NCBI RefSeq assembly: GCF_012489685.1
Contig: NC_080044.1
Location: 18,456,369 to 18,520,368, forward strand
DNA: 64,000 nt
Source of the DNA: Lotus japonicus
Taxonomy: Eukaryota > Streptophyta > Magnoliopsida > Fabales > Fabaceae
Direction of reading: 5' to 3'
Shown here: piece after piece, positions 8,349 to 61,095 of the stretch
How the letters are laid out: each line of letters opens with the position of its first letter
Position numbering within the stretch: position 1 is the stretch's first letter
Notes under the pieces: generated by a model
What the model was told of the DNA's origin: nothing
Databases searched by the model: none
What the model saw: the letters and a program-made list of their open reading frames with translations, nothing else
Program-made: the position numbers and the translations under genes

Positions 8349-8357
8349 TATTATTAT

Positions 8358-8374
8358 CGTGAAAGCTATGGTGT
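8358..8374 (+). repeat. Left terminal inverted repeat of the giant MULE
   Basis: CGTGAAAGCTATGGTGT, matching the right terminus at 15 of 17 positions; preceded by TATTATTAT. Confidence 0.65.
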
Positions 8375-10427
8375 GTACAAGAAAACGGGATCCATCGGTA
8401 CCCACCGTGCACATTTTTTTAAAGATAGGGGGATACCGGTGTATACGTATTGATAACCATTTGATAAATTAATATTTAATTTGGGTGGTTGAGATGTGGT
8501 GACGAATACTGGATGAGCAGGTAATTTAATTTTTGGGTACCAAAAATTACTTGTCCTTTTGAAATTATTTACTAAGCCGAAGTAAATAAATAAATAAAGT
8601 TAATAATTTTTTCACCAATTATTTAATACCTGCATAATGTATATTTGCAAAAATATTAACACCCTTTTGAATCAGACCTACCTAACGCACACCTTCTGTT
8701 GTTGTTCTCCAAACTCACACCCGACATCGATAACCCACCATCCATCGTAACCCACCATACCTACCATCCTTGGAAGGCCAACATCGTTCTCGCTGGCTGC
8801 CGTCGATATAGGGTTCCATGGCTTTGTTCCTGCCGTCGCCTGTGTTATAGACATCGGTGTCCAGACATGCCGTAGCGTTTTCCGGCGCCAACCAAGCGTA
8901 AGTTTTTGTTATCTCTCGTCGTGGTAGATGACTAGAATTTAAGTTTTGAAACAAATTAGTAATTGGACCTTCGATTTTGGGGTATTTATTAAATTAGGGT
9001 TTTTTTGTGCATGGATTTGAAACGAATTGGTGATTTTACGTTCCAATTTGAGGTTTTTATGAATTTAGCTATTTTGTTCATGGATTTTGAACGAATTGTT
9101 GGTTTGTGGGGAATTGATGCATTGACTTATTGGTTTTTCTGAAATTGGTCTTTTTCTGTTTCCAGAAATTTGGTTTTCACTTACTGGAATTATGCCAGAT
9201 TGAGTAGGGTTATGTCAAATTTGGGGTTTTGAGTTCATGGCTTGAATTAGGGATTTAAAATTAGGGATTTCAAATTAGGAAATTAAAATTAGGGATTTGA
9301 AAGTAGGGATTTCAAATTAGGGATTCCCACCGACTAAGTACTTCATGAATTAATTTTGTTGGAGGTTTGAAGGTTTTGGTGTGTGAGCATGAAACACTGT
9401 CAACAGATTGTGCGAATTTTATGGAATTAATTTTGCTTACCATGTAAATTATGTGACTCAAAGTCTATAAACATGTGCTTAGTTGAATGAATGTTGGTCT
9501 GAATGAATACTAACAGCTGATGTTCGTGTTAAAACTAGGGATTTTGGAGCTTCACAATCCAGGAGTATGTATGTTGAACACATGAATTCCAGGTTAATCT
9601 GGAAGTTGAAGTGGTTGAAGGGGGTGGTGGCTGGTTGAACTCAGTGTTTGAGAGGGCCAACTGGGGCATTTCGTGGTTATGTAATTGGGCCTGCCTCTTG
9701 GGCCTTAAAAAATGATATTGAAATTTGTATATATTTAATAATTGATTTTGAACATTAATTAATAATTAAAATATAACTTAGAATTATATATTTTTATAAT
9801 CTGTACCAAATAATAGTTAAAACCTAGTCGAATATTAAAAAAAAATATAAAATGATTTTTGTAAATTTGTATTTAAATGACAGTAATAATATTACAGAAG
9901 ATGTATATTAAATTTCAACTAAGCAGCAAAATGTTGATGAAATAAGGTTTCGCAGTATTATCATGACCTGGTTTATTTGATTTAATGCATAATGAAATTT
10001 TATCCTGATTGTGGGTTGATTTGCTCCTTGTCAAAGTATAGGTGCTTTTCATGTATACATAATATAGTATCCTAGTTTGAATCGAACTGGTTGGGCCTAC
10101 AATTTTATGTGTGGTCCACGGCCTCTTTCAATACTTATTTACTTACCGTTTGTGTTTGTGTGTTCCAAATAAAATAGATTTCCTGTTTATATCATGGATT
10201 GTTAACTCCTTTTGAGTATGGTCAAGGTAAGGTAATGTGGTCAATGTATCCTGCCATATTTGTTTCCAAAAATGTGGTGACATCATCATAAATGCTTTTG
10301 TAATTGCTTCTTGACCAGAATGAATGCTTTTGTCAATAAGTTATCTTCCCAATTTATTCATTTCCAAAACCCAAGTGTGTGTGTGAAACGCGGTCCCATC
10401 CCATACCTCCCCCCCACCCCATTTAGC
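8375..10427 (+). other. Left non-coding arm of the giant MULE
   Basis: No supported gene. It holds AT-rich sequence, a moderately GC-rich patch at 8670-8900 without a convincing protein, and an array of AATTAGGGATTT-like units at 9244-9325. Because it leads into a TATA box and gene at 10428, it probably includes the regulatory left arm of the element. Confidence 0.4.
9244..9325 (+). repeat. Tandem array of about six 14-15-bp units
   Basis: Imperfect units of the form AATTAGGGATTTCA repeated head to tail. It lies about 0.9 kb inside the left end of the giant MULE. Subterminal repeats can be transposase-binding sites, but no such role can be shown here. Confidence 0.75.
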
Positions 10428-10436
10428 TATAAAAAC
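10428..10436 (+). promoter_or_regulatory. TATA box of the B3-like gene
   Basis: TATAAAAAC, followed by C/T-rich sequence typical of a plant transcription start region and an ATG 68 bp further on. Confidence 0.55.
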
Positions 10437-10503
10437 TCCCTCCCCTTTCCTCACCAGCCGTGTTAGCCAACCACATACTTTGTATATTTCTTGAACAACC
10501 GAA

Positions 10504-11062
10504 ATGGCCAGCTCCAGCCAATTTCCTCCTGAAGATGATTCTGAAATAGTATACATCTCCTCAGATAGCGACTCTGATGATTCCGATGACTACCCTTTCG
10601 GGTGGATTCAAAGGACTGACCCACGGTTTCGTGAGAAGGAGACTCGGGTTGGGAGAATTCCATTCGGTCCAGGGTTCATGAAGCCCATTACTGGTCCTCA
10701 ATCTAAACCTGGTCAATGTATGGTGAGTACTTATGCTAACATGCGCAAATTCTTCCATGTATTTAATATGCAATCCTTCATATGCTATTTGCTCATGACA
10801 AGGAATTCCTTCATGGTTTGTTGAGAAATGGCTTGATAGGAAATATAAGAAAATCGTTATGGTATATGAGTATGTGAAGCGGTATGAATTTTGTCTCGCG
10901 TGGCATGTTTACAATGCCAACCAGTGCTCCTTTGCGCTCGGTTGGTATGATTTCAAGAAAGAGAATGGCATATGCCCTGGAGATCAGGTTACTGTTATGC
11001 CAACATGTTTTGAAGATGTGTTCACCATCTCTGTGTCACGCGCAAGTGATCGTCTATTGTGA
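10504..11062 (+). CDS. Small B3-like DNA-binding protein with acidic N-terminus (two exons)
   Basis: Proposed exons 10504-10711 and 10803-11062 give 155 aa. The N-terminus is acidic and Ser/Asp-rich (IVYISSDSDSDDSDDY). The second exon reads IPSWFVEKWLDRKYKKIV, then W-V and FALGWYDFKKENGICPGDQV, the F..GW..F...N.L..GD signature of plant B3 domains. The domain binds DNA in known families, so a nuclear DNA-binding role is inferred. The donor is uncertain: the better consensus ATG|GTGAGT at 10722 would throw exon 2 into a frame with an early stop, so the weaker G|GTCAAT at 10711 is preferred because it keeps the B3 frame. It is the first plus-strand gene inside the giant MULE. A TATA box and normal codons argue for an expressed gene. 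Confidence 0.6.
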
Positions 11063-13333
11063 ACGAATAGGTCTCATGGCCCATGCATGCCAAATCTAAT
11101 TTTCTAGTATGTTTGACTTTGTCAATTCCCATGTGGAAGCCTTTTTTAGGGTTTCACCCTTTGTTCCCAAGTATGTTAATTTCAAATTGAATAAAGTTCA
11201 CTGTTGCTGGGCATGTATTTGCATAGGTTCCACCATAAGTATATAAGTTGACTGAAAATGTTTAATGAGTAGAAATTAAAATAATTAATATTAAAATCAC
11301 TTATACAGTAATTAACATTGAATTAATAGTATTATATGAAAATTCTCTACAGGCTGTGTTAAGTCGTGAAGTGATGTTTACAAGAGTAATTAGAGTGCCA
11401 AAATTGCTATTAAGTGGTTGTTAGGGTTGCGATGTTATACGGCTCCCAACAATAGTAACACTCCTTTGCTTACATTTTAATTTGACCCAATACAAATATG
11501 GTGTCTAAGACTCCAAGTAGTAATGATAGATTCTCCAACAAGAATACCTACTGCCATTTCCTCATTTCCTTCATGATATTCCAATTGTCATTGTTATGAA
11601 GCAATGCAGATCACATACAATAAATGTGGATTTTTGAAACTTTTGTAATAGAAAATGAAAACACAATTAATTTAAGGTGTATATGGAACAGTTCAAAACA
11701 TTTTTGGTGGATTATTGCAAATATGGCATTTATTTAGGAACATAAGAAATGTGAAATTATGTTTTATAAAAAGGTACGGAGGAAGTATATGGGTGGTAAA
11801 TATAAAATACAAGTAGTTAGATTTATGAATTGAGGAAACTAAATAGTGGCGTAAATAGTCCATCATTTTATATTAAATTCGCCACTGTGAAAATATTGAT
11901 TCCGTAAACTGGTTGAGTTAAAATTCAGAGACCATGTATTACTATTGTGGACTAATGGGAAAGGTGTGAGCTACGGGTTTTTGAGGGTAAAGGGTGATGG
12001 TTGAATCATGGCATGGCTACGGAACTAATTTACTATAATTAACAACTCACATTGGCCTATAAAAAAACTATATTGTGGAACAATAAATGACAAGAGGAAA
12101 AAAGTAGAAAGAAACCAAACTTAGGCTATTAAATAGGGTAAATATGGAAGGTATAGGGCTAAATATTTATGAAAACCGAAATTTGAGTGTAGTTATTCAT
12201 TTAACTGTGAATTGTACAAAATTAGGGTATTGGATTAAGATCTAATACAACACATTTCGCTAATTATGGAAAAATGAAATGTGTCTAATTAGTGTATTGA
12301 AGTTTTTAAAAATACACTCATTATTCTCTTACCCACAATGACAGGCGCGTGCGTGCCACGGGTCAGAGGAGAGAGGGAGGCCTGCAGTTTGGACGCGTGT
12401 TAGTCGTTGATTGGCCCGGACGATTTTCTTTTATCCTAATCTTTTAAACTCAATTATTTCATTAAAAAAAATTTAAAAAAATGTAAAAAATTTACCAAAA
12501 TTCATGATTTTTTTTCTCTATAAATGGAGACTTGGTTCGATTGATTTGGACACAGAAAAAAAATCAAGTTTTTCATCATCTTATCTTTCTACTATCCTCT
12601 TTGCTTTGAAATGGATCCCAACAAGTACCTTTTGTTAGTTATCATTTTAAGTTAAGAAAATAAAATGTATTATTGTGTGTTTAGGGTTTTTTTTTCCATT
12701 TGAAGTTAATAAAATAAAATAAATTATTGTGTATATTTTTTTAAAAAAAATATTAAATTGTTAAGTGTTTTAATTTAATTTACGTTAAGAAAATATTACG
12801 TTAATTTAATTTAATTTAAATAAATAAAAAAACATTAAATTAAATTAAATCGATAATAGTTTATTTAATTTAATTTTTATCGTAAATTTTAATTTTATGA
12901 AATCATAAAAAGAAAAATATAAAATTAAATGAAAATATTAAATAAAAGTGGTGGGGTAGGGGGTAGGGTTAGGGTGGTGAATGAAAAACCATTATTTGCC
13001 TGTTTTCCGAATCACATAATATCCTCTTGACCTGACATTTATAGCAGACGCATTTTTTTTTATAGCAGACGCATGGTCTGCAGCATTGTCTGTTGTCTGT
13101 GTTGTCCCATCATATGTAGAAGCAACGTGGCCAATTTATGAACCGTTTGTGGAGTTTTTAACCAGGGAATAGTGTAGACTCATAAGAAGTAATCTTATGG
13201 TTATTAGATATTTTCCATGTACAGTATTATATACCTCAAGAATCAAGATATTGCCTACCGGCTATAAAGGCCTATATAGCAATGTTAATATATCTATAGT
13301 GGTTTTTATGAATATTATATTGAATATATCACC
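11063..13333 (+). other. Non-coding stretch with an orphan promoter and first exon
   Basis: No complete gene. A TATA box (CTATAAATGG at 12518-12527) precedes an ATG at 12611 followed by MDPNK and a GT donor at 12625, resembling a promoter with a very short first exon. No partner exon is seen before MULE-2 at 13334. It may be the front of a broken gene, or could conceivably lead across MULE-2 to the gene at 15617. The 14-mer TATAGCAGACGCAT occurs twice at 13038-13073. Confidence 0.3.
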
Positions 13334-14618
13334 GGCTTAATGGGTTCAAAGCACCCTGATATTACAAAAGGAATCAATTCGAGGCGCAGAAAAAAAATTT
13401 CATCAAATTGGATCCCTAAAATGTCGCTGCAGCTCAATTTTTGTCATAGTCACCAATTCCACTTGACATTTACAATGTTTTTTCTAATTAAATAATAATA
13501 AAACTTTAACTTTTTTATTCCAACTCAGTTATTTACGCAGCAAAAAAATTAATAACTGAATAAAATAAGTAATCTAATTTCAAAACTGAATAAAATCCCT
13601 AATCTAATTCCAAAACTTAATCTAATCTAATTCCGTAACTTAATCTAATCACCTATCTAGTTCTTCGTTTCTTTTCCCAGAAGAACACAACACCAACACC
13701 ACCCACTTTCCTTCTTCCTGTCAACGTGAATTACCATCACCACACTTTCCTCTACTTCGCATGAAGGTGCCACCACCACTGTCCCTCTTGCTTCCTCTGT
13801 CGCAACTCGCAAGCCACCACGAGAAAGCCACACCATCATCACCACGTCTTCTTCTTCCCATGAGAGCCACCTTGAACGAACCAGCACCACCTTGAAAACC
13901 ACGACCGCGAGCTCCTCTCCCCTGTCTCCAGCGAGCATTGCCTCACCACCACCGCTTCCAGAAACGACAAACAAAAGAGAAAAAGTGGAACCCTAACCAC
14001 CGTCCTTCACCATCTTCTACAACGCCGCTCGAACATACTCTGACGGCGATCTGATTAGAGAGTCATCGAGGGTGAGGAGGTCGAACCTTCCTTATTCGAT
14101 CCAGATCTGGGTGTCCTTCAATCGTGAAATCCAAATCGGGGTTTTGGGACTCATGGAGGTTGGGATATTTTTTCTCTCTCTTCGTCACTCCTTCTACTTG
14201 CTTCGACTCATGGAGGTTGCAGGTTGGGTGGATGTTGTTGGGTTTAGAAGATGAAGGTTTTGAGTGTTGAAGATGAGAATGATGAAGATGATGGTGTTGG
14301 AGATTAGATTTTTTAAATTCGGTTTATTAGATTATGAGGTGGTTTAGTTTATGATAATTAGGTTAGGTTTTGATTAAGATTTTTGTTTCAGAGTATTCTG
14401 ATGACTTGTATTAAAAGGGAAATTTTGAAATAATCGTTAATTAAAAAATACTTTAAAAAGCCAGGTGTCACCGATGAATAGGACCAATTTGACATTTTGC
14501 CTTATTTGAATAAAAAAACAAATTTTGGGACCCAATTTGATGAAGTCATTTTCCAGGTCTTGGAACTCATTCTCTTTGTAATCTCATACGCCTTTGGACC
14601 CTTCTAACCCTTTAGGCC
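13334..14618. mobile_element. Long-TIR MULE-2, non-autonomous, nested in the giant MULE
   Basis: Inverted arms of about 150 bp begin GGCTTAATGGGTTC on the left and, read inward, GGCCTAAAGGGTTA on the right. The flanking duplication is TATATCACC / TATATCTCC (8 of 9). The GC-rich interior at 13675-14260 is closely similar to the MULE at 52250-63366 once that copy's LTR element is removed (1285 versus 1276 bp), so they are siblings. Both carry a minus-strand open frame reading MLAGDRGEELAVV. Since it is low in complexity, it is treated as shared DNA, not a proven gene. Confidence 0.9.
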
Positions 14619-14675
14619 TATATCTCCAGTGACGATATAAAGTTTTTGACTAATTACTCTCTGTGTTCTAAAATA

Positions 14676-14822
14676 CACCCTCCGGTCACTATTATAAGAA
14701 AAAGTTTGCTTTTTATATTTGTTGCGTAAATGATTTATGTGACAAGTATGATGAGTACATACATAATTTACTACATGAATGTAAAAAGCCAAATTTTGGC
14801 TTATAATAGTGACCGGATGGTG
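14676..14822. mobile_element. Stowaway-type MITE (Tc1/mariner)
   Basis: Ends CACCCTCCGGTCACTATTAT and, read inward from the right, CACCATCCGGTCACTATTAT, flanked by TA on both sides (14674-14675 and 14823-14824). The CTCCGGTCACTATTATAAG terminus and TA duplication are typical of Stowaway elements. 147 bp, no coding capacity. Confidence 0.9.
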
Positions 14823-14824
14823 TA

Positions 14825-15616
14825 ACTGAGACTATTTTAACGTGAGTTTTTTTCATAATTATCTGCCACTTTACAAAGTTCCACAGAGCATTAATAAATG
14901 ACTTTACCAATTTCATCCTTCATGTATTCATGTTACAAAAATTGAAAAGTTAGAATTAATATGAGATAAATGGTATAATTGGAAGTTAAATAGTAATTTT
15001 AATAAAACAACAAGGCTTTATTGCTATTTGTGAATACTTGTGCAACAATCATAAAAGTTTAGTTCAAACTCGACGACAAATATGAGAAATATAATTCAAT
15101 GTCACAACACCTTTATGTCAACCAGGTTGTCTATGGGCGATCAAAATGTCATAGTGATGGCGGCAGTGAGATTCGCTTTTACTAATTTGTCAGAGTGTTA
15201 TCATAATGAAATGGATGGAAAAGCTTATCGAAAGCTGTTACTAGTCCCTTCCTTCTGTGAACTGTGAATTGTACCATTATATATAAAATATTGATATTAA
15301 GAGCAATTTGGATCTTTGGGTATTCATTGACTAGAAGACTGTGTAATTCAAAGAAAAGCATAGGAAAGTATATTAAAACAATTATTAAAGGTGTGGTGTG
15401 TCAGTTGACGAAGGTGTTACAAGACGACAAATGATGAACCTAATTAATTGCATGGCCTGTTTTAAATTACATTCACCATTTATACCAGTAGGTTATCCTC
15501 ACTGAAACATTTATACTCTTCCCAACTTCCCCCACTATTTCACGTCGTTGCCAAGTATATACTTAGGTCTAGTTGGTCGAATTGCAAACCCTTACTTGTC
15601 GTTGTTCATTTATGCT
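14825..15616 (+). other. Non-coding stretch before the viroplasmin-domain gene
   Basis: AT-rich with no supported gene. The last 150 bases, with TTTATAC at about 15510 and C/T-rich sequence, are probably the promoter and 5' UTR of the gene at 15617. Confidence 0.35.
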
Positions 15617-16436
15617 ATGGCCGGAACGAAAAACTTTTATGTTGTGTTCAGAGGGAGGAAGGCTGGTATCTTCAAGGAATGGATTGACTGCCACACTCAA
15701 GTTGTGAAGTTCAAGTGTAGTGCATATAAAGGGTATCACACGCGTGCAGAAGCTGAATCAGCTTGGCAATACTTTTGTACAACTGGCAATGTACCTGTCG
15801 TCTTGGATGATATACAAGAAAGTGCACCATTCATTCCTTGTCCCACTAGCATCCACCAACTCTCTCTTGAAGGGTTGTCTCTGGAAGGTATAATTGTTCC
15901 CTTTGTTAGTTATTAAATGAAAGAATATATTTTTTTCATACGTGTATGTAACTAACTTGTTAATTTTTTTGGTTCACATTATAGAGGGTAGCAGTAGCAA
16001 CGACAAAACTGAGGCCAAAGCCAATGAATTCTTGATTGAGTATAGTAACCAAGGTCTCCTACTTGACGTCTGTGAGAGTCTTGGGATTCCTCCACCGTCT
16101 TTTACCTTGTTGGACACGAAGGATATCAATGGTGTTGCTCATCACAGATACGGGGTATGCGTCGTAGGTGACGGGCCGCTCGAGAGACCACTGTTCATTG
16201 TTGGAGAGTTTAACATTTCACATACAGAAGGTAAGGACAACGCGGCATGGTTGATGGTGCAACAGCTAGTTGGGAAGTCTGGGAAAACGGTTAAGGACTA
16301 CAACTACCATATTGTGGATCAGTTGCAGGCTCAGTTGAGCATTAAGGACGACCAACTCAGAACAATGAGATCTGAGATTGCCACGTTGGATCATGAACTT
16401 CAAACACTCAAGGATCTCCTTGGCTTTTCCCAATAG
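15617..16436 (+). CDS. Viroplasmin/RNase-H1-N-like domain protein with dsRBD-like and coiled-coil parts
   Basis: Two exons, 15617-15887 and 15985-16436 (donor GAAG|GTATAA, acceptor TTATAG|AG, Glu codon restored), encode 240 aa. Residues about 5-53 read KNFYVVFRGRKAGIF..W..C..QV..FK...YKGY.TRAEAESAW, the caulimovirus-viroplasmin / RNase H1 N-terminal fold (PF01693 type), which in RNase H1 binds RNA-DNA hybrids. The middle part, from LLLDVCESLGIPPPSF to AAWLMVQQLV, resembles a degenerate double-stranded-RNA-binding domain. The C-terminus (DQLQAQLSIKDDQLRTMRSE and on) is a clear coiled coil. There is no RNase H catalytic domain. A nucleic-acid-binding, self-associating protein is inferred. It sits inside the giant MULE on the plus strand. 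Start M15617 is chosen because the domain begins just after it. Confidence 0.65.
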
Positions 16437-18453
16437 GTACTACAGACTGGAGGAAGGGAGCAGGCCTAAAGTGTGAATCCAGATACTATGTGGTTATTAA
16501 TGGAGCCTTAGATTATGTTTGTCCTGTAGTCGTAAGTTTGTTAGTTGTTTACATTCTCTGCAAGCTTCTTTTCTTTGTAATGGTTTCCCAGATGCAGTTA
16601 GTGACGAGGCCAATCTGTAACTTCTGAATTGCTTTTGAAGTTGTTCTATGTTCAATGTTTTCAGCTTATCATTTCAAAATTTGTTCCTTCTTCATTTTTT
16701 TTACTAGTTGTTTGTATATGAGAGTGAGGTATTGAGTTAGGGTTATTTGGCGAATGTTTTAATTACAATACATGGTTAAATGAGACTAAGTATATATTTG
16801 GGATGCAACTAACTAAGTATATTTACCACAACTACTTTCAAATTCCATCAAGATTCGAGTGTAGCACAGTAAAGGGTTTTTTTCGTACTCAGGGTATTGG
16901 AAAAACATTGTTGTTCTTTAGCTAAAGTACTTAATTAAGCAATGAGTTCAAGAAACATTTGGAATTGGATTTGGTCGACTAATTTGCGGAACTAAAAGAA
17001 AGCGGTAATAATACCGTTTGTAAACCAACGGATAAAACGGTTTGAATTTGATTTCGCCGATTAAATCTTCGGTATCCTTATGATTTGATATATAAATTAC
17101 TTCCTATGCTGAATACCATCACATCATTTTTTATCCTTTTCATAGTTCCCTCATAAAAAGGATCATTCAACTCACTTTCTAACCATCAATCCCTTGAATA
17201 ATTAATAAAACATGTTGTATTAAGCTTAGATGTTACTTGTTCAATGAAATTAATTCCATACATAGATAGTTCCCTCACTAGATGATCCTATCTATTTCCG
17301 ATTCAAGTAACTAGTTTATCCGTGACTTAATCAAACCTAAAAAACAAATTTTAGTTGATCATTCTAAAACAACCATTAAAAGCAAGATAGATCATTGAAA
17401 TCAACACATAGGAACATGAATTTATACATGAGAAAATTCCTTCCTTCCTTCGTGGGTTTCCTTTCTCTCAAGCATGCTTTTGTTTTTCTCTCTTTTTATC
17501 CCTCCAAAATCAGGTTCCCCCCTTTTAAAGATGAAGAAAATTCTTTTATAATGATCTTTTTCTGTGTAGCGCGCAGAGTGGCCACAGGGAAGCGCTGCGC
17601 ACCCTATGTATCCTGAAATTGACTAGGTCTTTCGAAAATGAGCTTTTTTCCTAGAACACTTAGACAGTACATCAAAATTTGTGAATATAGTCAATCATGA
17701 AACACATTTGAGGTTAATTCTCAATTAAATCACCAATTCCAAGCAAGATGAGAGGAACTAATAAAGTTGTGTCGGGCGTCAAGGCTCTGCTCTCTAATGA
17801 CATCCCTTTGTTAATATGTGTGGGATTGAAACATTGGATCATGGCATACTTAAGAGTAATAGCTCTAATGGCATCCAACTTGTAGGTAAATTTAATTTTT
17901 TAAGGAAATTTGTATAAGCATTCACTGAGGCATTGTAATCCGAATGGACCAGGTTATTGAAAATTAAACACTTGTTTTATAATCTTGTTAGTGTCCTAAA
18001 CAATAGAATTACATATAACATATGTATTCTGTCTCTAGTTTATTCCTAACAATCTCGTGCACCACCTTTTAACACATATAGACATTATAAAGGGTGAATA
18101 TATAATAATTTGTAATGCTAATGGTGACATTACCACAAAAGCAAACTGCTAGATTCAAAGTATTGTGCGGGCCCCTGGCAGCCACATAGGAGGAACAAAA
18201 GGGAAATTTGGACTCCCGCGTTCAGTTCGCAGTCCTTCGAGCCAAAATGTCTCAGGACACATCACTACAGTTCGCATTTAATGCATCTCGAAAACATCAT
18301 CACTGATATCCACCTTCCTTTGTAATGCTTGAGTACGTTGTTTCCCTATAAGACCTTAGCTGCGGTGCAAAGAAATCACATGATTAAGACATTTAGCAAA
18401 AGAAAACAAAACATCTGTCTTAAACTGTTCACTGGAACTCAAGGTTGGTTTAG
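16437..18453 (+). other. Spacer between cargo genes
   Basis: The first 200 bases are probably the 3' UTR of the viroplasmin-domain gene. The remainder is AT-rich and shows no gene. Around 18340, TTTCCCTATAAGACC may be a weak TATA region for the next gene. Confidence 0.35.
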
Positions 18454-21252
18454 ATGACAAACCTCCTGGACTCAATGGACAGCGATGAAATGGATGAGGG
18501 CATCAACACAGACGGCGGCCAAAAAAACCCTTGGGAGTGGGAGTATTAATCAGCATCACTATGTCATTTCAAATCATTATACCACATATATTAGACCTTG
18601 TCATGGATGTTAATTTGGACATTATTTTTACTATAACCAGGTTGCCAAATCAAGACCATGAAGGTGGTGATGAAAACGCTGGAGATGGTGGCCCCGAAAT
18701 GAACCAAGATTCTGTGAGCGACTCGCTTTCCGTAAACATGGTCGTTTACTTCAAACTGGTTTTATACCACGTATGGCACCTATTTATATTATACCCATTT
18801 CGTTAATTTCTTATAGAGCAAGGAAGCTGAAGCAGTTCCAGATGAGTCTCAAAAGTCACAGGAAGTGACACTTGGTGTTTTGTTTGACCTGATGAAGGTG
18901 AAATCTTACGTTTGTAGAGACACACTCCATATGTTCATTATGTGTTTATTTTGCACCCACTTTGTTTGCAATCCAAAATCTGTTAAAGTGATGGATGTTG
19001 GTGCCACTTTATTTAACACAGGACATACTTTGTAGAGTGGAAAAAATGGAAGTTTACAACAGAAAGGCTAGCAGGGAAGGTACTAAAGCGAACGCTCAGC
19101 CAAGTCAAAGCATGGCAAATGTCACCATGAGGGCTCCTCGACTGGTAGGCTTCTCCGTTGGTACATCAAACCCAATTAATCTACCTTTTGTGGATGGAAG
19201 TACTTTACATCGGAACTCTGTTGCTCAGAACATCCACAAGAGGCCATATGCGGTGTCGCCACAATCTCCAAGTGCAAGTGATATCCCAAATCAACTAAAC
19301 ATACGCATGGTGAACCAGCCTGGGAGTGAGTTTCGTAGGGGAATGCAACATGCGGTACTCCTTAAGTTGATTTGTAACAATGCTGACTACCCATATCTTA
19401 CATACTTAGTGAATTTCAACCTTAATAATCTTGTATTTCATGAAACGGATCAGGACACTGGACATGAAGATAGCATGGGAACACATGACGGAATGTTACC
19501 TAGGAAGCTAGTGTTTAGCCCTTCTACCAGTAAGAGCGCATCTCATGCGATTGATAAGGGGAAGGGGGTTGCTGTTGATGATGTCCACCGCAAGGCAAAG
19601 GTTCAGACCCACACCCTCCCAAGGGTACGAATGAATCTACAGTACTAGAAACTCAAAACTCACTTGATGACAATATTTATGTAAATTATCCAACACTTAA
19701 GAAACTGTTATATTTGATATTGTCATTTCAGTTTGTCAAGTCAAAGTTCAAACCTAATGCTGATATGAAGCTGGGCCTGTCGGAGTTACAGATATGTGCC
19801 TACGTTTTTTGCCGTGACAAATCATGGAGGTAGTTTAATGGAATAATGGTTTTAAGGCATATTTAGCAGTAAAGAATTTTAGAACCATTTGAACGCTATT
19901 GACTATTTGATTCCATAAACTTTGACTATGGAAATCTGTTATCTTATATTCTCCTTTGTTGTATGCAAGTGAGGAAATGTTCAAGTTGGGAAATGCATCC
20001 TATGCAAGAGGAGCCTTTGATTGCTTGTGCCCGGGGAAAATCGTCGGAGAAGAGGTCAGCTTGGCACCATTCTTTTCCCGCATTGCTTACTGAGATCCAT
20101 AATTCAGATGTATTTTTCTAACATGAATGAAATGGCAGATCATTACTATGAGTGCTTTGGCAATTACCTGGACCCAAAGGAACAAGTATATCAATTCCAT
20201 CTGGTGCTTACCTCCTGCTTTCGCGGTAATGAACTGAACATCAATTATTACATGACCCAAAACTCACAACCGTTGTTCCAATTATTTAACACTGAAAGTA
20301 TTTGTTATTTTGCATTCAGGATGACGTGGAAAAGGGTTGTGGAATCCCAGAGCTGGTTATGAAATATGCTAAGGAATGGATGCCACCATTCACGGAACTG
20401 TCTCACGTGAGTGAGGATGTGAAACATCCATTTCGTGTATGTTTGAGAAAATTGGAATTGTGTCCCACGTACATGCCAACCTTACTTGTTCCATGTCAAT
20501 TTTTTTCCAATAGATTTATGTCCCCATTGAAGAGATTGGCAGTCACTGGTACCTTATGGTTGTTGATGTGCTTGGCCAAACAATCTACACATTTGACTCT
20601 TACGCCAGCCTCCATATGATGCGAGGCAGAGAACTAATTATGCGCAACGTGGTATGTCACATTGTAATCCCATCATAAGTATATGAAGCTACACTCACAT
20701 GTATTCTAACCTGTGCCTTTTGTAATTAAATTTAACTAGGCCAAAGCCATCAACCAGATTATTGAAACAGAGCATTACCCTGCAAACTATCTGTGTCGAC
20801 CAACATACCTTGGACAGTGGCCTATAATTGAAGCAAGGGGAATCCCTAATGTTGGAGGAAGGTTAGTAAATCAATTGTGTCTCTTTACGTCATGCATCAA
20901 TTTTGATATTGGGTGTCGACTAATGGGTCAAGTGATATAATTTATTTGGCAGCGATGACTCAGCTCTATGGGTTATATCTTGGCTTAGAATGGGTGTTTA
21001 TTTCACACACAGTGTGATTGGGGTCGTAAGTAGCCTGAGGACATGATCTTATTTAATTTCCAAATACCATAAATGAAACCCCAATAGTTATTAATTTTAA
21101 TCCTCCAATGTTGTTTTCAGTTGAAGGATCGTGCTCTAAGAATGAGGGTGGCTTTAGACTTGATTATGGGGGACCACAATGAGCTGAGGGACGAAGTGGA
21201 CACAAGTGCAGACATTGCGTGGCGCAACATGATTATGAACAACACCATATGA
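18454..21252 (+). CDS. Ulp1-like (SUMO-protease fold) cargo protein A, 13 exons, catalytic Cys replaced by Ser
   Basis: Exons: 18454-18542, 18641-18713, 18817-18897, 19022-19354, 19454-19624, 19732-19829, 19970-20054, 20108-20185, 20320-20406, 20514-20651, 20740-20861, 20953-21022, 21121-21252. Every junction is GT-AG and in phase, giving 518 aa. The N-terminal half is acidic and Ser/Pro/Gln-rich. The C-terminal half has the C48 fold: IYVPIEEIGSHWYLMVVD with the catalytic His, TIYTFDSYAS with the Asp, and SDDSALWVISWL where the family has DCG(V/I)(W/F)V. The nucleophile Cys is therefore Ser, and the usual upstream Gln is not evident, so protease activity is unlikely. It lies in tandem with gene B at 23401 and shares its exon pattern. 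Ulp1-like genes are known passengers of Kaonashi MULEs; a role in SUMO or ubiquitin-like binding is only inference. Confidence 0.75.
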
Positions 21253-22919: not shown

Positions 22920-23105
22920 GAGTAATGATATATACACACCTCATTTTTAAAACACTTCATTTCCACTTCTTTTTGTTTCTATCTCTCTCCTCTTACCATC
23001 TATCACATCTCATACTTTCTCTCCCTTACTTTTTCTTTTCTTCCTATCTCTCTCATCATTCCACCTCTCACACCTCAAAAGAGAGGTGTGTGAGTAACAT
23101 TACTC
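22920..23105. mobile_element. 186-bp TIR MITE with 9-bp duplication
   Basis: Ends GAGTAATGATATATACACACC and, inward from the right, GAGTAATGTTACTCACACACC form imperfect inverted repeats. The flanking AAAACGAAA is perfect on both sides (22911-22919 and 23106-23114). The interior is a C/T-rich tract. The 9-bp duplication suggests Mutator-superfamily mobilisation. Confidence 0.85.
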
Positions 23106-23400
23106 AAAACGAAATATTCCAGCCCAATTAATGCCAATAGGTTCGTGCATTGTGAAATGATGATTATTTTTCCATAACAAAGTCGAGTACCGTCCACCGC
23201 AGTCTGACAATCTCCAATTCTTCTCCTGTACCCAGTGAAATGATAATTATTTTCCAAAATGGCAGACATCGTAACGAGCACCTTATTTTGCTAATCTACT
23301 GAAAATTTCTAAGCCTAACCTAACCTCTCATTGTTTCTACCAGACCAAGACAAGATAAGTTCAAGTTAATTTTGCTCCATTGTTGAAATCACAAAATTAA

Positions 23401-26162
23401 ATGGACAACCTTGCGACATCACAACTGGATAAGGACACCGTTAGTTATTTGACAAACAGGTAAGATACTCGATAATCATTCTCATAATTCTCTATATCCC
23501 ACTAAACGATGGGTGAAGCTAGTTAGGGTGAACTTAAACCATTTTTTTATGTATTTCCAGGACAGACATGGTTGGCAACACCGTAGAGGAGGGTGTAATA
23601 AACCATGCATTATCTGAAGTGAAGACTATTTTAATGGATTTTTCTTCCAACCAAACCAAAAGGATGGAAATGCTAGATATTTCCGTTGACGGGATCTGTA
23701 CCAATTTGGAGCATTTCTCACAAAAACTTAAGGTTAGTGTATGCATAACCCTTATGGGTTTAGTTTCTGAGGGTGAAATCTTATTATCAGACAGCCTAAT
23801 GGCTCATTTAACATGTTATTGTAGACCACAATCGATCTCGTTGGCAAGCTGGACATGAAACTTCAGATTCTTGATGATGTATTGGTGAAACTGGATAATC
23901 TTGAGGAAGTCGTGAACAACTTGTGCTCCCACGAGGTTGTAAGGGGTGGTTTTAGTAGAGGCAGACGAGGTACGCCACCTCGTGGAAGAGGAAGAGGGGT
24001 TGCGGCAAGGCTTTCAAATTCGACATTTCGTGCTCACAACTCAGTCATCATGGCGCCAACAGAGGACGGGGAAGATAGTGAGTCAATGGGGTCTCCCTAT
24101 CTGGGTCCTCAACAAAACAAGGCCCACACATTCAATGCTTCATGTCTGGGCAGTTTGGGGAAGGTATTGAAAGTTCCTTCCGCGTGGTGTTCTTTAACTG
24201 CATTGATAGACTTTACATGACGCCTTTGCACTAATTGTAAACATCATTTCAGGTTAATTCCCAGCATACCACTGGGAATTATTCGTTACAAAGTTCTCAG
24301 AACTCTCACGGATTAGTGAGGAGGTTTAGCTTGAAACCATCTCCCATGAAACGGCCCTTAAAGATGCAGAAGACTGATGCAGGACACTCACAAACATCCA
24401 ACTTAAACTCAACCACGCGAGACAATACGCAAGCTATTCGTGGCGTTACCCTTAAGTCCCCACTGCCTGAAAGCAACATGTTACACGGGTTAACCATGCC
24501 AGCGGTATTTGTTGATATCTTTGTAAACTTTTGCCATGTGATACTTGAACATCCCATGTATATTGTTTAACAGAATTGTTATTAATGATTGCTTAATTAT
24601 TGAATGACATTGGTCTTCATGTAATTTTTTGCTGTACATAGTACATCAAATGTAAGTTCAGACCAACAGTAGACATGGATCTAGGACCTGACAAAATTCG
24701 GCTATGCGCATATGTTTGGCACGTTGGTGATGACGAAAGGTATGCATTATATGCTACAATGACTTTGTTGATGATGTATGTCAATATAATTTAAACCTGT
24801 TTTCATTTGGAACTAATTGTTATTGGGTTTAAGTGCCAATGAGGTGTTGTTAAAGACAGAAGAACATGTAGCTACAAGAAAATCGTTTGATTGTTTTTGC
24901 CTTCCACAAAAGATAACACGTGAGGTATAAACACAACTACTTACAGACTCATTCAGAATATGTTAAGAGCATATAAGACGTTAGTATAGCCATGTTACAT
25001 GATTACTAATGTGCATGAATGGTTGTTTGCGTAGATACTAGGATGGATGGCAGTTAAAGCTACATGGACACAGCAACATGGGGTTGATCAAACTTTGTGG
25101 TCGTTGCCTCCAACTTTTGCTGTAAGAATAAAACTTTGATGAGTTAATGAGTTAAGTTGTGTTTCTAATTATACAATCTTATACCGTAATTGCTTCCTTT
25201 TGTCAACGTATTAAACTGGTATATTACAGGATGATGTCAGCAATTCACTCACAATTGAAGAAATGAAGGCAAAATATGTCGCGAAGTGGATGTGGCCATT
25301 CCCAAACCTATCACATGTATGCAAAAACTGGATAATATAGTGCATATTACTTATACCTTTTGGATACACTATTAATGATTGTCCATCTCTGTGTGTAGAT
25401 TTATGTACCCATTGAGGAAAAATCTGGCCATTGGTTTCTCATGGTTGTTTGTACTGAGGATAAGGTAATTTACCAGTTTGACTCAAACCTTGATGTGCAC
25501 ATGATGGAATCAAGGACTGACACAATGCAAAAACTGGTGAGTCACCTGTCTTAGACCAGCATTAATGATACATTCCAGAAATTTCTTCCACCATTGCTCT
25601 AATATTTCCTTTCTAACTGCATTTATTTTGCCTTAGTGTGAGGTTCTTTCGCAGATGATGACAACACCCGAGTTCCCAGATAATTATCTAAATGACATTT
25701 TTCGTCAAGACAATTGGGAGTTGTCAGAAGCTAGAGGGATTGCTAATCGTGGTCATAGGTGAGGTCCATGAAGCAATCTATTTATTATTCTCAGACTCAC
25801 AATTTATTCACCATCTCATTAAGTATAAAACGTCATATTGATCAATTTGATATTAAAGATGCATTATTTCATGACTTGTATAGCAAAGACGCAGCAGCAT
25901 GCGTTCTAGATTGGCTAGACATGGAGCATATGTTCAAGCCTAATGTTTCTGGCATGGTGAGCGAAGACTACATAAAGTTGCATATAATTTGTTGGTCTAA
26001 ACAATTTATTTTCACTCATGTTTGTGTGCCTCATTTGAAATGCAGCAACATGAGCGACTAGTTAGAATGAGGGTGGCCATGGACTTGTTGACTGGTACCC
26101 ACAACGAGGTGTGGCCTAGCCTGCAGAAGAAAGTGGAGGAATACTGGAGCACCGTTAAGTAG
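23401..26162 (+). CDS. Ulp1-like (SUMO-protease fold) cargo protein B, 12 exons, catalytic Cys replaced by Ala
   Basis: Exons: 23401-23459, 23561-23732, 23825-24163, 24253-24504, 24642-24739, 24834-24924, 25035-25121, 25230-25316, 25399-25536, 25637-25758, 25884-25956, 26046-26162; all GT-AG and in phase, 544 aa. The N-terminus is probably helical (VKTILMDFSSNQTKRMEML, then LDMKLQILDDVLVKLDNLEE), followed by an Arg-Gly box (GGFSRGRRGTPPRGRGRG), often an RNA-binding or arginine-methylation site. The C-terminal C48-like part has IYVPIEEKSGHWFLMVV with His, VIYQFDSN with Asp, and SKDAAACVLDWL where DCG is expected. The Cys position is Ala, with a Cys two residues later. Four C-terminal exons (98, 87, 138, 122 bp) have exactly the lengths of their counterparts in gene A, showing tandem duplication. 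Probably a non-catalytic Ulp1-fold protein. Confidence 0.75.
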
Positions 26163-27073
26163 CGATACACAATTTGTGTTCGCTGCCCAAAACACTCTTG
26201 TGATCATTTTGTTTAGTGTAAACGAAAGGATACGTGCACTTGTTTATCCAATTTCTGCTGTTTGACTTTGTATTATGCGCAACATACCATCCCAACTATT
26301 GGATGAAATCAAATGTAGCGCCCCTACTCTTCTCTTCCAATTGATCACATCTGGGATCAACTTAACTGTACGCGTAGGGGTTCCTTATATGTTATATGTT
26401 CATATATATGTAATTTCGTACTTATCACACTGTCTCTACAACTATTGCTCTCTTAACTACCCTGTAATATTTACTCCTTTCAGCATTATCATTTCTTTTG
26501 TACAGTTTCATTGTTATTGATTATGAGTCTTCAAAATAACTTGCACTAAGCAAACACTATTAGCTTAGTGAATATAATAAAATCTCATTTCCATTTGAAA
26601 ATAATTTTTCAATTGCTATTGGCAATGAGACTTCAAATGAGCTTTGGACATATCCAAAGCAAACTATGATTTTAAACAGAAACCTCAGCCACAAATGACC
26701 CTTAAATAACTTTGGATTAGTTCCTCATCCAGTTATTTCCCAGAAAGTTTCTTTTAGAAAGGTCATTCTGAGTTGTGACCCTTAAAGCTACCATATTTCA
26801 TATTTTAACTTATATAAACTATAATGAATAATTCAAAAAGTTGTGATTATTGTGGGATGAAAATACAACCATCGTGTTAGTCAACAAAAGACCCACCCCT
26901 GGGAAACTATATAATTAAGGGCAAGGTGTGTTGCAACGACTATGAGGTATATGCATTTGGACCCAAATATCATAAGCTTGGGGAAGCATTGTAATTACAA
27001 AAGAAGCATGGCTAATTCACTGTACGGTGATTACAAAAAGTTAATTACTTAAGAGACCATACCATCCACCTGA

Positions 27074-27262
27074 TCAAGATTGAACTCTCCTGTATGCTTC
27101 AAGCAATGTGGTTGCTTCACGGGTGTGCCTTCTGGCATTGAAAGTGAAACTCGCCAACTACGTCAATAATCGAATATGTGCACAATCACTTACTTCACTC
27201 CCAGCAGCAATTGATTCATCATCATCGTCTCGACCAAGTACATAGATTGCTTGGGGTACAAC
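27074..27262 (-). pseudogene. Exon-like fragment of unknown origin
   Basis: On the minus strand an acceptor CTTCCAG precedes 27262, and 27262-27194 reads VVPQAIYVLGRDDDDESIAA plus GSE, ending at a perfect donor GAA|GTAAGT. A second open piece, 27157-27074, reads LASFTFNARRHTREATTLLE and on to a stop. The gap between them (36 nt) is shorter than normal plant introns, so both pieces may not belong to one functional gene. The family is not recognised. Lying between convergent genes inside a MULE, it looks like a captured and decaying gene fragment. Confidence 0.3.
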
Positions 27263-27807
27263 CTGGAAGTAAAGTATATTATCAATACTTGAAGTGGAAA
27301 TTTTGTGCGACACTTTTGTCATCAGTCACAAACGTCTTCTTACAAAGACAAACTCTACATACAAGTATACTAACCTCAATCTTTCAAAATTTGCATCGAA
27401 GAGACTTTAGAACAGAAGGTTAGAATTTAAAGAGTCTAATACAATCTTCAATTAACTTGTGAATTATAATGGACCAAAGGATATTGAGCATATAAAATAT
27501 GGCAAAAAGAACTTTTTACCTTCGCGTATTCTTAACAGCCAACAGATTTTTCTCACATTATTTAAGTCTTTAGATAGCAGACATTAACTTCAAAATCAAA
27601 TGCAACTACTAAAGGGTACATACTAAAATAGCAAAGAATCACATTCTCTTTGATAAAATCAGTCAAAATGATATTGCATGCGGGGCATACACATAATACA
27701 TAATAAAATCAGTTTGTTCTATATGAAGGAGAACAAAAGAAATTATATCCAAGACACTATGAAGGACAGGCACATAAATTATATTCATTGAGACAAAGGA
27801 TGTGTAC

Positions 27808-27862
27808 CTCTTGAAATCTAATGATGCTGGGATGCTTCAAGGACCTATGATGCAGCATTGCA
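27808..27862 (-). pseudogene. SnRK2-like protein kinase exon fragment
   Basis: The minus strand reads LHHRSLKHPSIIRFQE and then a GT donor. Plant SnRK2 kinases have NHRSL(R/K)HPNI(I/V)RFKEV in the alphaC/beta4 region, with an exon boundary at that point. No flanking kinase exons (ATP loop, HRD, DFG) were found nearby, so this is best read as a gene fragment captured by the giant MULE. The short match limits confidence. Confidence 0.5.
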
Positions 27863-27886
27863 AACGAATTGAGGTTTGCAATGCTG
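27853..27886. repeat. 13-bp perfect inverted repeat (hairpin)
   Basis: CAGCATTGCAAAC at 27853-27865 and GTTTGCAATGCTG at 27874-27886 are separated by 8 bases. The left arm overlaps the SnRK2-like fragment, so the arm seems to have been copied in inverted orientation. Confidence 0.85.
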
Positions 27887-28516
27887 GGAAATCAAATCAA
27901 CCAACAAATCATAACAGCTGTAGTGAGTAAGATTAAATTAGATGACAGAATAGGTGCTAGGTAATAGGATAAGAAAATGTTGAGACTGACTTAGACCTGC
28001 TACTATGGGTAGATGGGTAGATAATAGTACGAAATATATTCTTTCCCCTGCATAATACAACCTTTGAAAACTTTTATAAATGTCACTAATTAAATACCAC
28101 GAGGTTAATTCAAGGTAGTACACAAACACACCACACACTCATTGCACAATACAACAATTGAAAACATACATATTAATACTAAAACAGAATACAGCCATTA
28201 TACAATGAAAGTCACTCGAACATTGATGTATTGTTTATAAGGACTGGAATTCAACACCGTTATTGGCAGGTACACCAAACTAAAGATCCGATCACATTTC
28301 CAAATAGACAAAGCCTGAATCCTCCAGATCGAATGGTCACCATTGGTTGAAGACTAATTTTCCTAACATTGCCCCCCTGCATTCGCCACAATTTGACAAC
28401 TGTTAGTAAAAGTCTTTATGATCTTTAAGTAATCATTCCTCACACAACTTATTGCAAAATTCAAACAACACTAATACTAAGTGAAGACAATGTAAACAGG
28501 GAATTTGTAAATTTGT

Positions 28517-31259
28517 CTAGGTAAGTGACATACATTCATCCTCATAGTAATCACCTTCGTAGTCACCATCTTCATCGCCTTCATCTTGACTAAACGTACT
28601 GTCATTTTCTCCAACCATTTCAAAGTTGTCGTCTCCATAGTCAATGTCTCTTAACAAAGGACACGTCAATCTGTTGTGCCCAGCAACTCTGCATGCAGTA
28701 CATCTGATGGTACGCTTCGTAGTTAAACCAGACGCTGACGATGTTGCATGAACACGCTGCCGCCTAACAGGTCCAAAAGTATTAACCCCCCCAAGGACAT
28801 TAGGATCGCTTTCAATGTTGTTGCCCTCATCTGTAACATTCATGCCTTTTAGTAACTGTTTTTCATGCGCAATTTTCTCTTTAACACTGTTGAAATCTTC
28901 AACAGTCTTACTAGCCATTGAGCACAATTCCCTGCATGACTCTACCAAACAAACATATCTAGCAATAACATCAGATTCCCAAAATATGGACCCTTCCATT
29001 GCTTCCCCATTATAACAATCTTTTGCACCTTTACTCCAGCGTTTAGATACTAGACAATTTGGCAACTCGCTAATGTGGAGAAATACAAGAACCCCCAAAA
29101 TATGCTCACATGGCAGTCCATATGTCTCCATCTTTTCACATGAGCACTTGAAGTCAACTGTGGATGGATCATAGTAAACATTCCATGCCTTTGACTCCCT
29201 TCGATACTGTACAACTTGATACCGTTTGTGACCGACAGCACGTATCAATTCTGTGACAATCATCTCTGATGCAAGGCTAATAGTAGGGACAAACAAATTG
29301 AATACTTCCCTAGTGAGTATTCTTGCAGCTGACCTTTCAAGTCCTCTAAAATTGGTTTGCAAAGGAAGATCACCAAAACCAGACTTGAAATCAGCCTCTA
29401 ATTCTTTGAAACGCATGTACGAAAGACATCGATGGAAGTGCTGAACAAAATCACTCAAGTTGTGCCTTGATCGGACAAACTTCAATAGTTGAGAGTGAAA
29501 ACCCTCACACCTTGATGTTGTCCTAAAACCAGCAAAAAACTTCCCACGAAAGTAAGTGGCAGCCCACATTTCCCTTTTCTCGTACATTTCAATAATCCAA
29601 ATATCATCCTCCAGACACAGTTCTGTCACCATTGCAGCCCACCTTCGCTTGAATTCACCAATACCATAGTCACTTAACATACATGTCCGGAACCTAGGCA
29701 AAAATTCAGGAATCGCAATCTTTTTATTTGCTATTTTAAGCAAATGCCATGCACATAGCCGATGATGAGCGTTCGGAAAGACTCTTCTAATAGCGTTGCG
29801 CATTGCCGTTGCACCATCGGTTATGACAGCACCCGGTAACTTGCCATTCATTGCTTCAGCAAACTGCTCTAATAACCAAACATAGGTTTGTTCACTTTCA
29901 TTTTCCACAATTGCAGTAGCAAATACAATTGTTCTGTTGTGATGGTCGACACCCGAAAATATCACCACAGGTCGCCGATACTTGTTTTTTTTGTAAGTAG
30001 CATCAAAAGCAAGTACATCTCCAAACACTTTGTAATTGTATCGGCTGATCCCATCACACCAAAACAAATGTTCAACTCCGTGCTCGGCATCCTCCGTGTG
30101 CCGCTCAAACATTAGTTCATCATTCATACCCAACCATCTAAGATAATCCAGTGCGTTCCGCCCATCTGACATATGTGACCGCCTTTGCTTGGCAAGTTGA
30201 TTTTGCATATTTTTCTGACCAAACCCCACATTCTCATAACCTCCAGACTGACTGGCAAATGAATTAAATATTTCTGGTGCACTTATACCCGACTTCATGA
30301 AACCATTCATTGACATAATGTCAGCATCATGCATTTTCCTATGCCCAGCCAAAAAACCACCATGCTGCTTCGGCAAAAGCTCATGGTTATGTCCATCTTC
30401 AAAACAAGTTACATACCATCGTTGTGAGGGAGGGTCAATGTGCACCCGGAATTTCGCTTCACATCCACATCTGAAATCAGCCTTAGCTCTTCTAAATCTC
30501 ATTGCGTCAGAATTCCCTTTGTCTTCACGAAAACCTTGTCTATGGCACAAAAAAGTTTGCTGCACAGCTTCCCCTTTTGTATTTCTGCGTATGGTACCTC
30601 TACGGGCTGAAAACCCCATGATTCTTCCATACCAATGATAGAAATCATAAGCAAGTTCCACATTTGCAAAAAGGTACTTGCCTACATCCAAAGGGCCAAC
30701 GCATCCGAAATCTAACTGCAAATAGTCTTCCTTACAGTTAATAGGTACAAGATGTGGTTCCGCTGACTCTTCAGTCCTTTGCTGAGACGCACCATTTCCA
30801 ACACTATCACCATCGTTTTCATCTCTCTCTGAATCACCCTGGTTTGAAGTTTCATCAAAGGATTCCTCATCAACATAATTTTCATAAACTCCACCCTCAT
30901 ATTCACAAACTTCTTCTTCATTAGAAAGCCACATGTCGTTCAAGCCCTAAAAACAAACAAATATCAGATATATTACAAAACACATACATTGAATGTAAAC
31001 TCAGAAGCAAAATGGGGATGAAAAAAGGTTGTCGCAGTATTATAGTACCAGGGGATTATCATTATCCTCTGTCATTGTTGTCAAATCTGCTTCCCCCTCT
31101 ACTTGAATCTCTTCAACACCCTTAACAAATATAAATTTAACAAACATTACCATACAATACAAACAACACCTTACCAGTAAATAAACAAAACAGAGTATAG
31201 GAAACGAATACCTCAACACTGACACTAGTTGACAAACCTTCTTCCCTTTCATTCTCCAT
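28517..31259 (-). CDS. FAR1/MULE-type transposase, three exons, intact DDE
   Basis: Exons 31259-31212, 31120-31049 and 30946-28517, all phase 0, encode 849 aa. In the 809-residue exon-3 part: an acidic N-terminus; a FAR1-type DNA-binding domain at about 88-190 (YDFYHWYGRIMGFSARRG, then C..G..AKFRV, ending in GHNH); a MULE transposase core with D314 (FDATYKKNKYRRP), D376 (ITDGATAM) and E480 (SRCEGF), the expected DDE triad, and CAWH at 397-400; a SWIM zinc finger C600-C602-C612-H614; and a CCHC zinc knuckle (CTACRVAGHNRLTC, 748-761). Nothing is broken. FHY3/FAR1 relatives include both host transcription factors and active transposases. Its start lies 557 bp inside the right end of the giant MULE and it points inward, so a transposase is preferred. 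The first ATG (MENEREEG) is used because short exons 1-2 splice perfectly to exon 3. Confidence 0.8.
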
Positions 31260-31799
31260 TTCGCCACGACCCCACACGACAAGGGAATCTCTTACAAAAA
31301 ATTAACAAAGAATCGGAGACCTTATAACCCGGAACGGATCATCGACAGTAGATAAAATGAGAACACCTCCGGAGAAAAGAACGATTCACCGGACTCATCA
31401 GCACAAGATTGAAGAACACCCAGGTTATTGCCCTTTACAATCAGAGACAACACAATTACAGACCACCGCGACTTTCAATGCCAAACACATATCTGAATCT
31501 CCAGATGAAAGAATCAAGATCACAACTCACTCCCTTCTCTTCTCTGGTTTCGCCGATGGTGACACCAGTTAAACGGGATCCATCCGTGACCTTAACCCTA
31601 GGATTTTCCCGATGCCCTTTCGCCCTAATCCCTAATTACACCTCTTTCCCCTCTTTCCAATATTTTTTATGATTATCATATTATTTCTAATTTTATTACT
31701 GCCAAATATTAATTATTTTATTTTTGTACAGTTCCGGTTGGCAAACTGGGACAAGCAGGTCAACATCGGGGGGCATGGATGAACCCCCTTCTACAAGGG

Positions 31800-31816
31800 A
31801 CACCATAGCGTTCACC
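31800..31816 (-). repeat. Right terminal inverted repeat of the giant MULE
   Basis: Read inward on the minus strand: GGTGAACGCTATGGTGT, followed outward by the target duplication TATTATTAT. The 540 bases between it and the transposase start hold no gene and presumably contain the transposase promoter. Confidence 0.65.
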
Positions 31817-31864
31817 TATTATTATTCTGAAATGGTTATCACTCACTGGTGATGGTTATGATGT

Positions 31865-52535: not shown

Positions 52536-52814
52536 TGGTCTGACATGGGCGTACCAATGCATAAGACACTTGGGCTGATCATTTTGTATATCTAATGGGC
52601 CGGGCAACCCATGGTTCGTTTGGACCGAAACCCAAGTTATATAAAACAGGAACCACCCAAGCGGTGGGAGGATCTATCATTTTCACGCATTTTTCATCTT
52701 GTTCGTTCCTTATCGCTCTCAATTGATTAGCCCTTGCTTGATTTTCATTGGTCTATTTTACATTCCTTTCGTTCTAAATCGATTAGCCCGAGAGGATAGT
52801 TCCATACCGGAACA
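52536..52814 (+). repeat. 5' LTR
   Basis: Starts TGG and ends ACA. TTATATAAAA at 52637-52646 is a probable TATA box for the genomic transcript. Confidence 0.93.
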
Positions 52815-52815
52815 T

Positions 52816-52832: not shown

Positions 52833-52869
52833 CCGAAGGATACTTTCCTAGGCTTCAGTTCTCACCGCG

Positions 52870-61083: not shown

Positions 61084-61095
61084 TTTCAGAGTATC

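Follow-up and report, generated by a model that had tools for sequence, protein, structure and literature searches.

Does a single transposon span 23.5 kb of the Lotus japonicus genome, and if so, do the genes between its ends belong to it? The question is raised by a stretch of 64,000 nucleotides (NCBI RefSeq assembly GCF_012489685.1, contig NC_080044.1, positions 18,456,369 to 18,520,368 of the forward strand), called the window throughout, to which all coordinates below refer. An earlier note on this DNA had described positions 8358-31816 as an element of the Mutator superfamily with a complete transposase just inside one end and four spliced genes that point away from the other. Our analysis supports this description, with the reservation that one exon join of the B3-like gene is ambiguous. 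The region is, with high confidence, a single inserted Mutator-like element (MULE), and two of its four cargo genes encode Ulp1-like proteins, UlpA and UlpB, which are probably pseudo-proteases as judged by alignment. The element is made up of the following features.

8358 to 31816, no strand: the whole MULE, 23,459 bp (about 22.2 kb without a nested insert), defined by ends, duplication and internal transposase.
8349 to 8357, no strand: left target-site duplication TATTATTAT, read from the sequence.
31817 to 31825, no strand: right target-site duplication, a perfect copy, read from the sequence.
8358 to 8374, plus strand: left terminal inverted repeat (TIR), 17 bp.
31800 to 31816, minus strand: right TIR, 17 bp, found by the end scan and the end-motif search.
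8383 to 8396, plus strand: left copy of a subterminal 14-mer AAACGGGATCCATC shared by both ends.
31571 to 31584, plus strand: right copy of this 14-mer, in the same orientation.
28517 to 30934, minus strand: transposase of 805 aa in a single exon, with FAR1 N-terminus, MULE DDE domain and SWIM finger (open reading frame and Pfam).
10504 to 11062, plus strand: B3-like gene of at least two exons.
15617 to 16436, plus strand: viroplasmin-domain gene of 240 aa (exons 15617-15887 and 15985-16436).
18454 to 21252, plus strand: UlpA, Ulp1-like, 13 exons, 458 aa, modelled in this analysis.
23401 to 26162, plus strand: UlpB, Ulp1-like, 12 exons, 544 aa, identical to LOC130713650.

Two properties of the Mutator superfamily were found together, a MULE-type DDE transposase and a duplication of about 9 bp flanking inverted ends. 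The left end CGTGAAAGCTATGGTGT and the reverse complement of the right end GGTGAACGCTATGGTGT match at 15 of 17 positions, and both lie directly against the duplication, whose two 9-bp copies are identical. Because the duplication is of low complexity, all 19,826 pairs of identical 9-mers that the window contains were scored for an inverted 17-bp match. By chance, 0.003 pairs with at least 15 matches are expected in the window (binomial). As controls, the second end was shifted by 37, 61, -53 or 101 bases, and none of the four shifts produced a pair with 15 or more (best 14). The ends thus stand as the earlier note had placed them. The same scan found four other pairs with at least 16 of 17 matches, all in smaller elements, namely those at 32175-33147 and 46126-46647 and, as two nested pairs, that at 52250-63366. 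Searching the window with the inner 16-bp end motif yielded two matches without mismatch and one with three mismatches (at 36885). A smaller element around the transposase was considered and rejected, since the window holds no other end motif within two mismatches. The subterminal 14-mer is set back 25 bases from the left end and 232 bases from the right end; when 1,480 pairs of 250-bp stretches were drawn at random, 4 shared 14 bases or more.

The complete DDE transposase proposed just inside one end was borne out. Its open reading frame (ORF; 28517-30946, minus strand, ATG at 30934) starts 882 bp from the right end and is free of internal stops. Pfam assigned a MULE domain (PF10551) at 101.8 bits, with a cut-off of 27.6, next to FAR1 at 69.9 and SWIM at 22.7 bits. 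The motifs DATYKKN, TDGATAM and CEGFHS are present; three acidic residues were assigned by eye, as was a C-terminal CxxC-GHN-C knuckle. With this gene the element is potentially autonomous.

The four cargo genes all lie on the plus strand, opposite the transposase. Our 12-exon model of UlpB is letter-identical to the NCBI protein, and the UlpA model, whose N-terminal exons are our own prediction, is stop-free with GT-AG borders at all 12 introns. Both proteins exceed the Pfam cut-off of 20.7 bits for the C48 protease domain (PF02902), UlpA with 37.3 and UlpB with 44.5 bits. Comparing the two, 108 of 268 aa are identical (40%), and intron phase is the same in all seven introns compared. Nonsynonymous divergence (dN) is 0.60 against a synonymous divergence (dS) of 2.48 (NG86 method; dS is saturated), and codon differences fall on position 3 in 164 cases, on the other positions in 115 and 105. 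As intron phases are shared, dN is below dS and the third codon position differs most, we conclude from the sequences that UlpA and UlpB are diverged paralogs from an old duplication, both retained under constraint.

The catalytic residues were compared in an alignment (A4) of seven proteins, namely UlpB, P0004, P0007, P0008, P0009, UlpA and the distant Arachis protein P0010. Three relatives were left out of the cysteine count: P0005 exits the domain before the cysteine, P0006 has no C48 domain and P0011 stops before the cysteine. Cysteine occupies the nucleophile column only in the Arachis protein, within DCGVF. The other rows show Ala (UlpB, P0009), Ser (UlpA, P0007), Thr (P0004) and Val (P0008), and the QQ pair preceding the Arachis cysteine is PN or AN in them. 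The columns of the catalytic His and Asp are invariant (7/7). As the cysteine is replaced while His and Asp are kept, UlpA and UlpB are probably pseudo-proteases. Of the "SUMO-protease-fold" proteins of the earlier note, the fold therefore stood, with C48 above cut-off, and protease activity became unlikely for want of the catalytic cysteine.

At the position of the Arachis PQQ...DCG stretch, P0004, P0007, P0008, P0009 and UlpA have G(I/V/M)PNxG and UlpB has GIANRG; this stretch may mark the cysteine-less group. Relatives of UlpB are dispersed, with a shorter one (P0006) on another Lotus contig and four proteins in Trifolium repens. A C48 tree of seven rows with a single distant outgroup did not settle orthology of UlpA or UlpB to particular Trifolium proteins. 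A structure prediction for UlpB was set aside (mean predicted local distance difference test, pLDDT, of 33). A search of the PDB with UlpB alone returned only CENP-L (E 0.065), judged a chance match, and a profile of the Ulp proteins weakly matched Ulp1 (E 0.087) and XopD (E 0.32 and 0.42), in the region of the His-Asp strands.

The two-exon model of the viroplasmin-domain gene is letter-identical to the NCBI protein LOC130716098, and the product carries Pfam PF01693, the RNase H1 N-terminal domain, at 50.0 bits. This domain matches the solved RNase H1 structure 3bsu (E 1.2e-6). RNase H1 N-terminal domains bind RNA:DNA hybrids. A coiled coil forms the C-terminus, and for the second exon a relative was found that is 70% identical over 152 aa without gaps. 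The middle of the protein might be weakly likened to a double-stranded RNA-binding domain (dsRBD), as its structure model, with a mean pLDDT of 44, has an alpha-beta-beta-beta-alpha order compatible with this fold. Scanning PHROGs with the protein gave nothing clear.

The Pfam B3 match of the B3-like gene reaches 18.4 bits, under the cut-off of 30.1, and the second exon of the gene corresponds to the later part of the B3 domain. Enumerating the splice possibilities, the best donor and the whole domain were never combined in one join, so this may be a truncated or damaged gene. A B3-like tail (17.1 bits) was also seen in P0005, an annotated Trifolium repens protein in which it is fused to an Ulp1-like part. 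The tail may be a neighbouring gene, in which case P0005 perhaps joins neighbours of a related element. Since it is unlike the Lotus B3-like gene, this linkage was not taken as support.

Are these four genes the element's own? We consider it fairly probable that they have long been resident in the lineage of this element and are not genes lately captured from the host. The alternative, unlikely but well within consideration, is a real MULE with four mere passengers, host genes or genes of older transposable elements that were enclosed by the ends and have no role in transposition. MULEs often carry captured genes, and independent capture or loss of Ulp1 sequences by MULEs has been proposed (PMC2528002, PMC13317346). 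Passengers would also be compatible with UlpA not being returned as an annotated protein, as discussed below, and with an insert located between two cargo genes:

13334 to 14618, no strand: nested non-autonomous MULE or miniature inverted-repeat transposable element (MITE), 1,285 bp, with duplication TATATCACC/TATATCTCC (8 of 9 positions), outside the cargo.

An ORF at 13657-13992 belongs to this MITE, which is kin to the element at 52250-63366. As it inserted after the element had formed, about 22.2 kb represent the element proper. Against passengers speaks that the reading frames have stayed open across 2, 12 and 13 exons in three of the four genes, that the Ulp pair is under constraint, and that UlpB has dispersed relatives in both Lotus and Trifolium. 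Moreover, a word-based search of 5.77 billion proteins, limited to shared 5-residue words and similar length, turned up no closer parent in a host for either the viroplasmin protein or UlpB. Six-frame scans from 8358 to about 28100 revealed no further Pfam families at E<=0.1 on the plus and E<=0.01 on the minus strand. Protein scans of IMG/VR gave no confirmed relative of the cargo or the transposase. Scanning IMG/VR for the end motif produced 25 stretches with a single match each, which were judged chance.

The earlier note had further called the gene set a new architecture. That the set is unusual is partly supported; searches of the open-access literature found no published element with the same genes. 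An Ulp1-like gene in such MULEs, however, is already published: Ulp1 sequences occur in MULEs with and without TIRs, including Jittery-like ones of melon and grapevine (PMC2528002), and an Ulp1-like gene in this type of element is thus not new. Ulp1-like genes of plant MULEs have been on record since 2006, and according to a 2026 review their function there is still unknown (PMC13317346). What would be new is the pair of probable pseudo-proteases together with the viroplasmin-domain and B3-like genes.

For the element as a whole we tentatively propose an autonomous MULE whose resident proteins counter silencing, an explanation to which we give a little less than an even chance. It starts from what is observed, that is the ends, the open reading frames, the paralogy with constraint and the loss of the cysteine with His and Asp kept in the alignment. 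Transcription of the transposase gene runs leftward from close to the right end; its product would bind the short ends, and perhaps the subterminal 14-mer as well, and mobilise the entire 23.5 kb. The cargo proteins would shield the element from silencing. In such a scheme a DNA-binding protein, B3-like or Ulp1-like, might mark the non-coding ends of the element, the pseudo-proteases might bind, but not cleave, SUMO, a SUMO-like protein or SUMOylated silencing factors, and the viroplasmin protein might bind RNA:DNA hybrids or double-stranded RNA derived from the element.

In its most specific form the proposal reads that one lineage of FAR1-type MULEs in legumes has assembled a module of several proteins against silencing, composed of dead Ulp1-derived SUMO binders, a viroplasmin protein binding hybrids or double-stranded RNA, and a B3-like DNA binder. 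This version we regard as distinctly doubtful. If true, the module would obstruct RNA-directed, SUMO-dependent silencing of the element or divert it, and would be a transposon counterpart to viral silencing suppressors, independent of VANC proteins of the DUF1985 type. Apart from this version, a group of relatives with the cysteine lost and His, Asp and the remaining domain constrained argues that selection, at least here, keeps something other than protease activity, and the role of Ulp1 in transposons becomes testable as binding instead of cleavage. A hybrid-binding protein within the same element would make RNA-directed silencing a candidate target. The suggestion of the earlier note that the cargo acts on chromatin or host silencing stays conjectural; in its favor, a review links the Ulp1-carrying VANC genes found in VANDAL MULEs to hypomethylated states of related elements (PMC13317346).

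Several results weigh against the proposal. The 64-kb window contains no second end pair. UlpA was not returned among annotated proteins, though it was a query row. The DNA-binding role leans on a sub-threshold B3 match in a gene of ambiguous splicing, and the B3-like tail of P0005 has no BLAST similarity to this gene. For the dsRBD-like middle of the viroplasmin protein, Foldseek with the model had no match at E<=0.001, its dsRBD matches all having E >1, no dsRBD was among the PDB profile matches, and the DND1_DSRM family scored 16.0 bits in the relative P0002 (cut-off 25.7) and was not found in P0001. A tandem array directly outside the element (8216-8302) indicates that the arrays at the left end, listed below, are not specific to it, and the core TTAGGGATTT is also present outside, at 7314 and 7340. 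DUF1985 was not among the Pfam matches of UlpA, UlpB and P0004 at E<=10. Finally, Ulp1 sequences in MULEs of melon, rice and grapevine occur in both orientations (PMC2528002), and the orientation found here is accordingly weak evidence.

The viroplasmin and Ulp1-like proteins might instead serve transposition itself, for example by handling nucleic-acid intermediates, and not act against silencing. The domain matched in the viroplasmin protein, with its affinity for RNA:DNA hybrids, would suit such a role. Cut-and-paste MULEs, however, are not known to require proteins of this kind, and we consider this explanation improbable.

A cargo of the Kaonashi or VANC type, with active SUMO proteases stripping SUMO from silencing proteins, is very improbable. 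The C48 scores above cut-off in both Ulp proteins would fit it, as would the orientation, since Kaonashi MULEs (KI-MULEs) carry Ulp1 and transposase genes in opposite orientation (PMC2528002). The exchanged nucleophile (Ala or Ser), the PN or AN aligned to the Arachis QQ and the failure to find DUF1985 all argue against such a cargo. Very little credence is left for the absence of a single element, with ends that are coincidental or derive from different elements in an ordinary gene neighbourhood beside a FAR1-like gene: the low-complexity duplication, the short TIRs and the lack of a second copy in the window would permit it, but the chance expectation over all pairs and the empty controls, the 14-mer common to both ends and the intact transposase close to the right end speak against it.

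Returning to a MULE with resident proteins, we compared it with the known groups. MULEs with Ulp1 from the KI group of Arabidopsis, melon, rice and grapevine share with it the combination of a MULE transposase and an Ulp1-like (C48) gene, in the KI group also the orientation. KI-MULEs are described as non-TIR with an intact C48 domain (PMC6117577, PMC2528002), whereas the Lotus element has inverted ends with 15 of 17 matching bases, a C48 domain without the catalytic cysteine (Ala in UlpB, Ser in UlpA), and two such paralogs together with viroplasmin-domain and B3-like genes. VANDAL MULEs are similar in having several genes, weak TIRs, accessory proteins beside the transposase and tandem arrays in a non-coding end, and by this analogy the element perhaps functions like a VANDAL. 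The corresponding arrays are:

8725 to 9325, no strand: three short tandem arrays (8725-8758, 8945-9106 and 9245-9325) in the non-coding left end, found by Tandem Repeats Finder (TRF).

Three further TRF rows within the element fall inside the nested MITE. The targets of VANC are tandem repeats in non-coding parts, and its domain is DUF1985 (PMC5735166); TIRs of VANDALs are degenerate (PMC10398659). The Lotus element differs in that it has TIRs, that its arrays are not confined to it and that no DUF1985 was found; k-mer enrichment run on the complete element with its coding parts brought out no convincing VANC-like motif.

The transposase itself resembles the Jittery-like or FAR1-type MULEs in its FAR1 N-terminus, MULE DDE domain and SWIM finger. 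For the dicot and monocot Jittery group, a table with few plant members gives FAR1 plus SWIM or CCHC and a single ORF; TIRs are either absent or 39-292 bp long, and the duplication, where indicated, measures 8 bp (PMC6446971). The Lotus element has five genes, TIRs of 17 bp and a duplication of 9 bp. Pack-MULEs likewise hold genes between MULE ends. They are non-autonomous and contain host gene fragments. The Lotus element, in contrast, has its own intact transposase, and the search returned no parent in a host for either UlpB or the viroplasmin protein.

Other features surround the element in the window. On its left, an ORF on the minus strand (5265-5939) is presumably the TIR domain (here Toll/interleukin-1 receptor) of a plant TNL resistance gene. 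On its right, ARAGORN called a tRNA-Ser (anticodon act, 97 nt) at 34542-34638 on the minus strand. Rfam at gathering scores had no match anywhere in the window, and the call is therefore perhaps chance or a degraded repeat. Between 37370 and 43720, an ORF on the minus strand, which we take to resemble a Pin1-type prolyl isomerase, adjoins what is presumably an element like a long interspersed nuclear element (LINE) on the plus strand, with endonuclease and reverse-transcriptase ORFs. About 360 bp to the right of the MULE lies a separate element of 973 bp (32175-33147) with inverted ends of about 209 bp (84% complementary) and the duplication TTTTTTTTA. A small inverted-repeat element at 46126-46647 is nearly a full palindrome, with ends matching at 16 of 17 positions and the duplication TTAAAAAAA. 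The relative of the nested MITE at 52250-63366 is a non-autonomous MULE or MITE that a retrotransposon of about 9.8 kb interrupts. Direct repeats of this retrotransposon, similar to long terminal repeats (52532-52814 and 62089-62371), are 99.6% identical, and by eye its ORFs are of the gypsy type.

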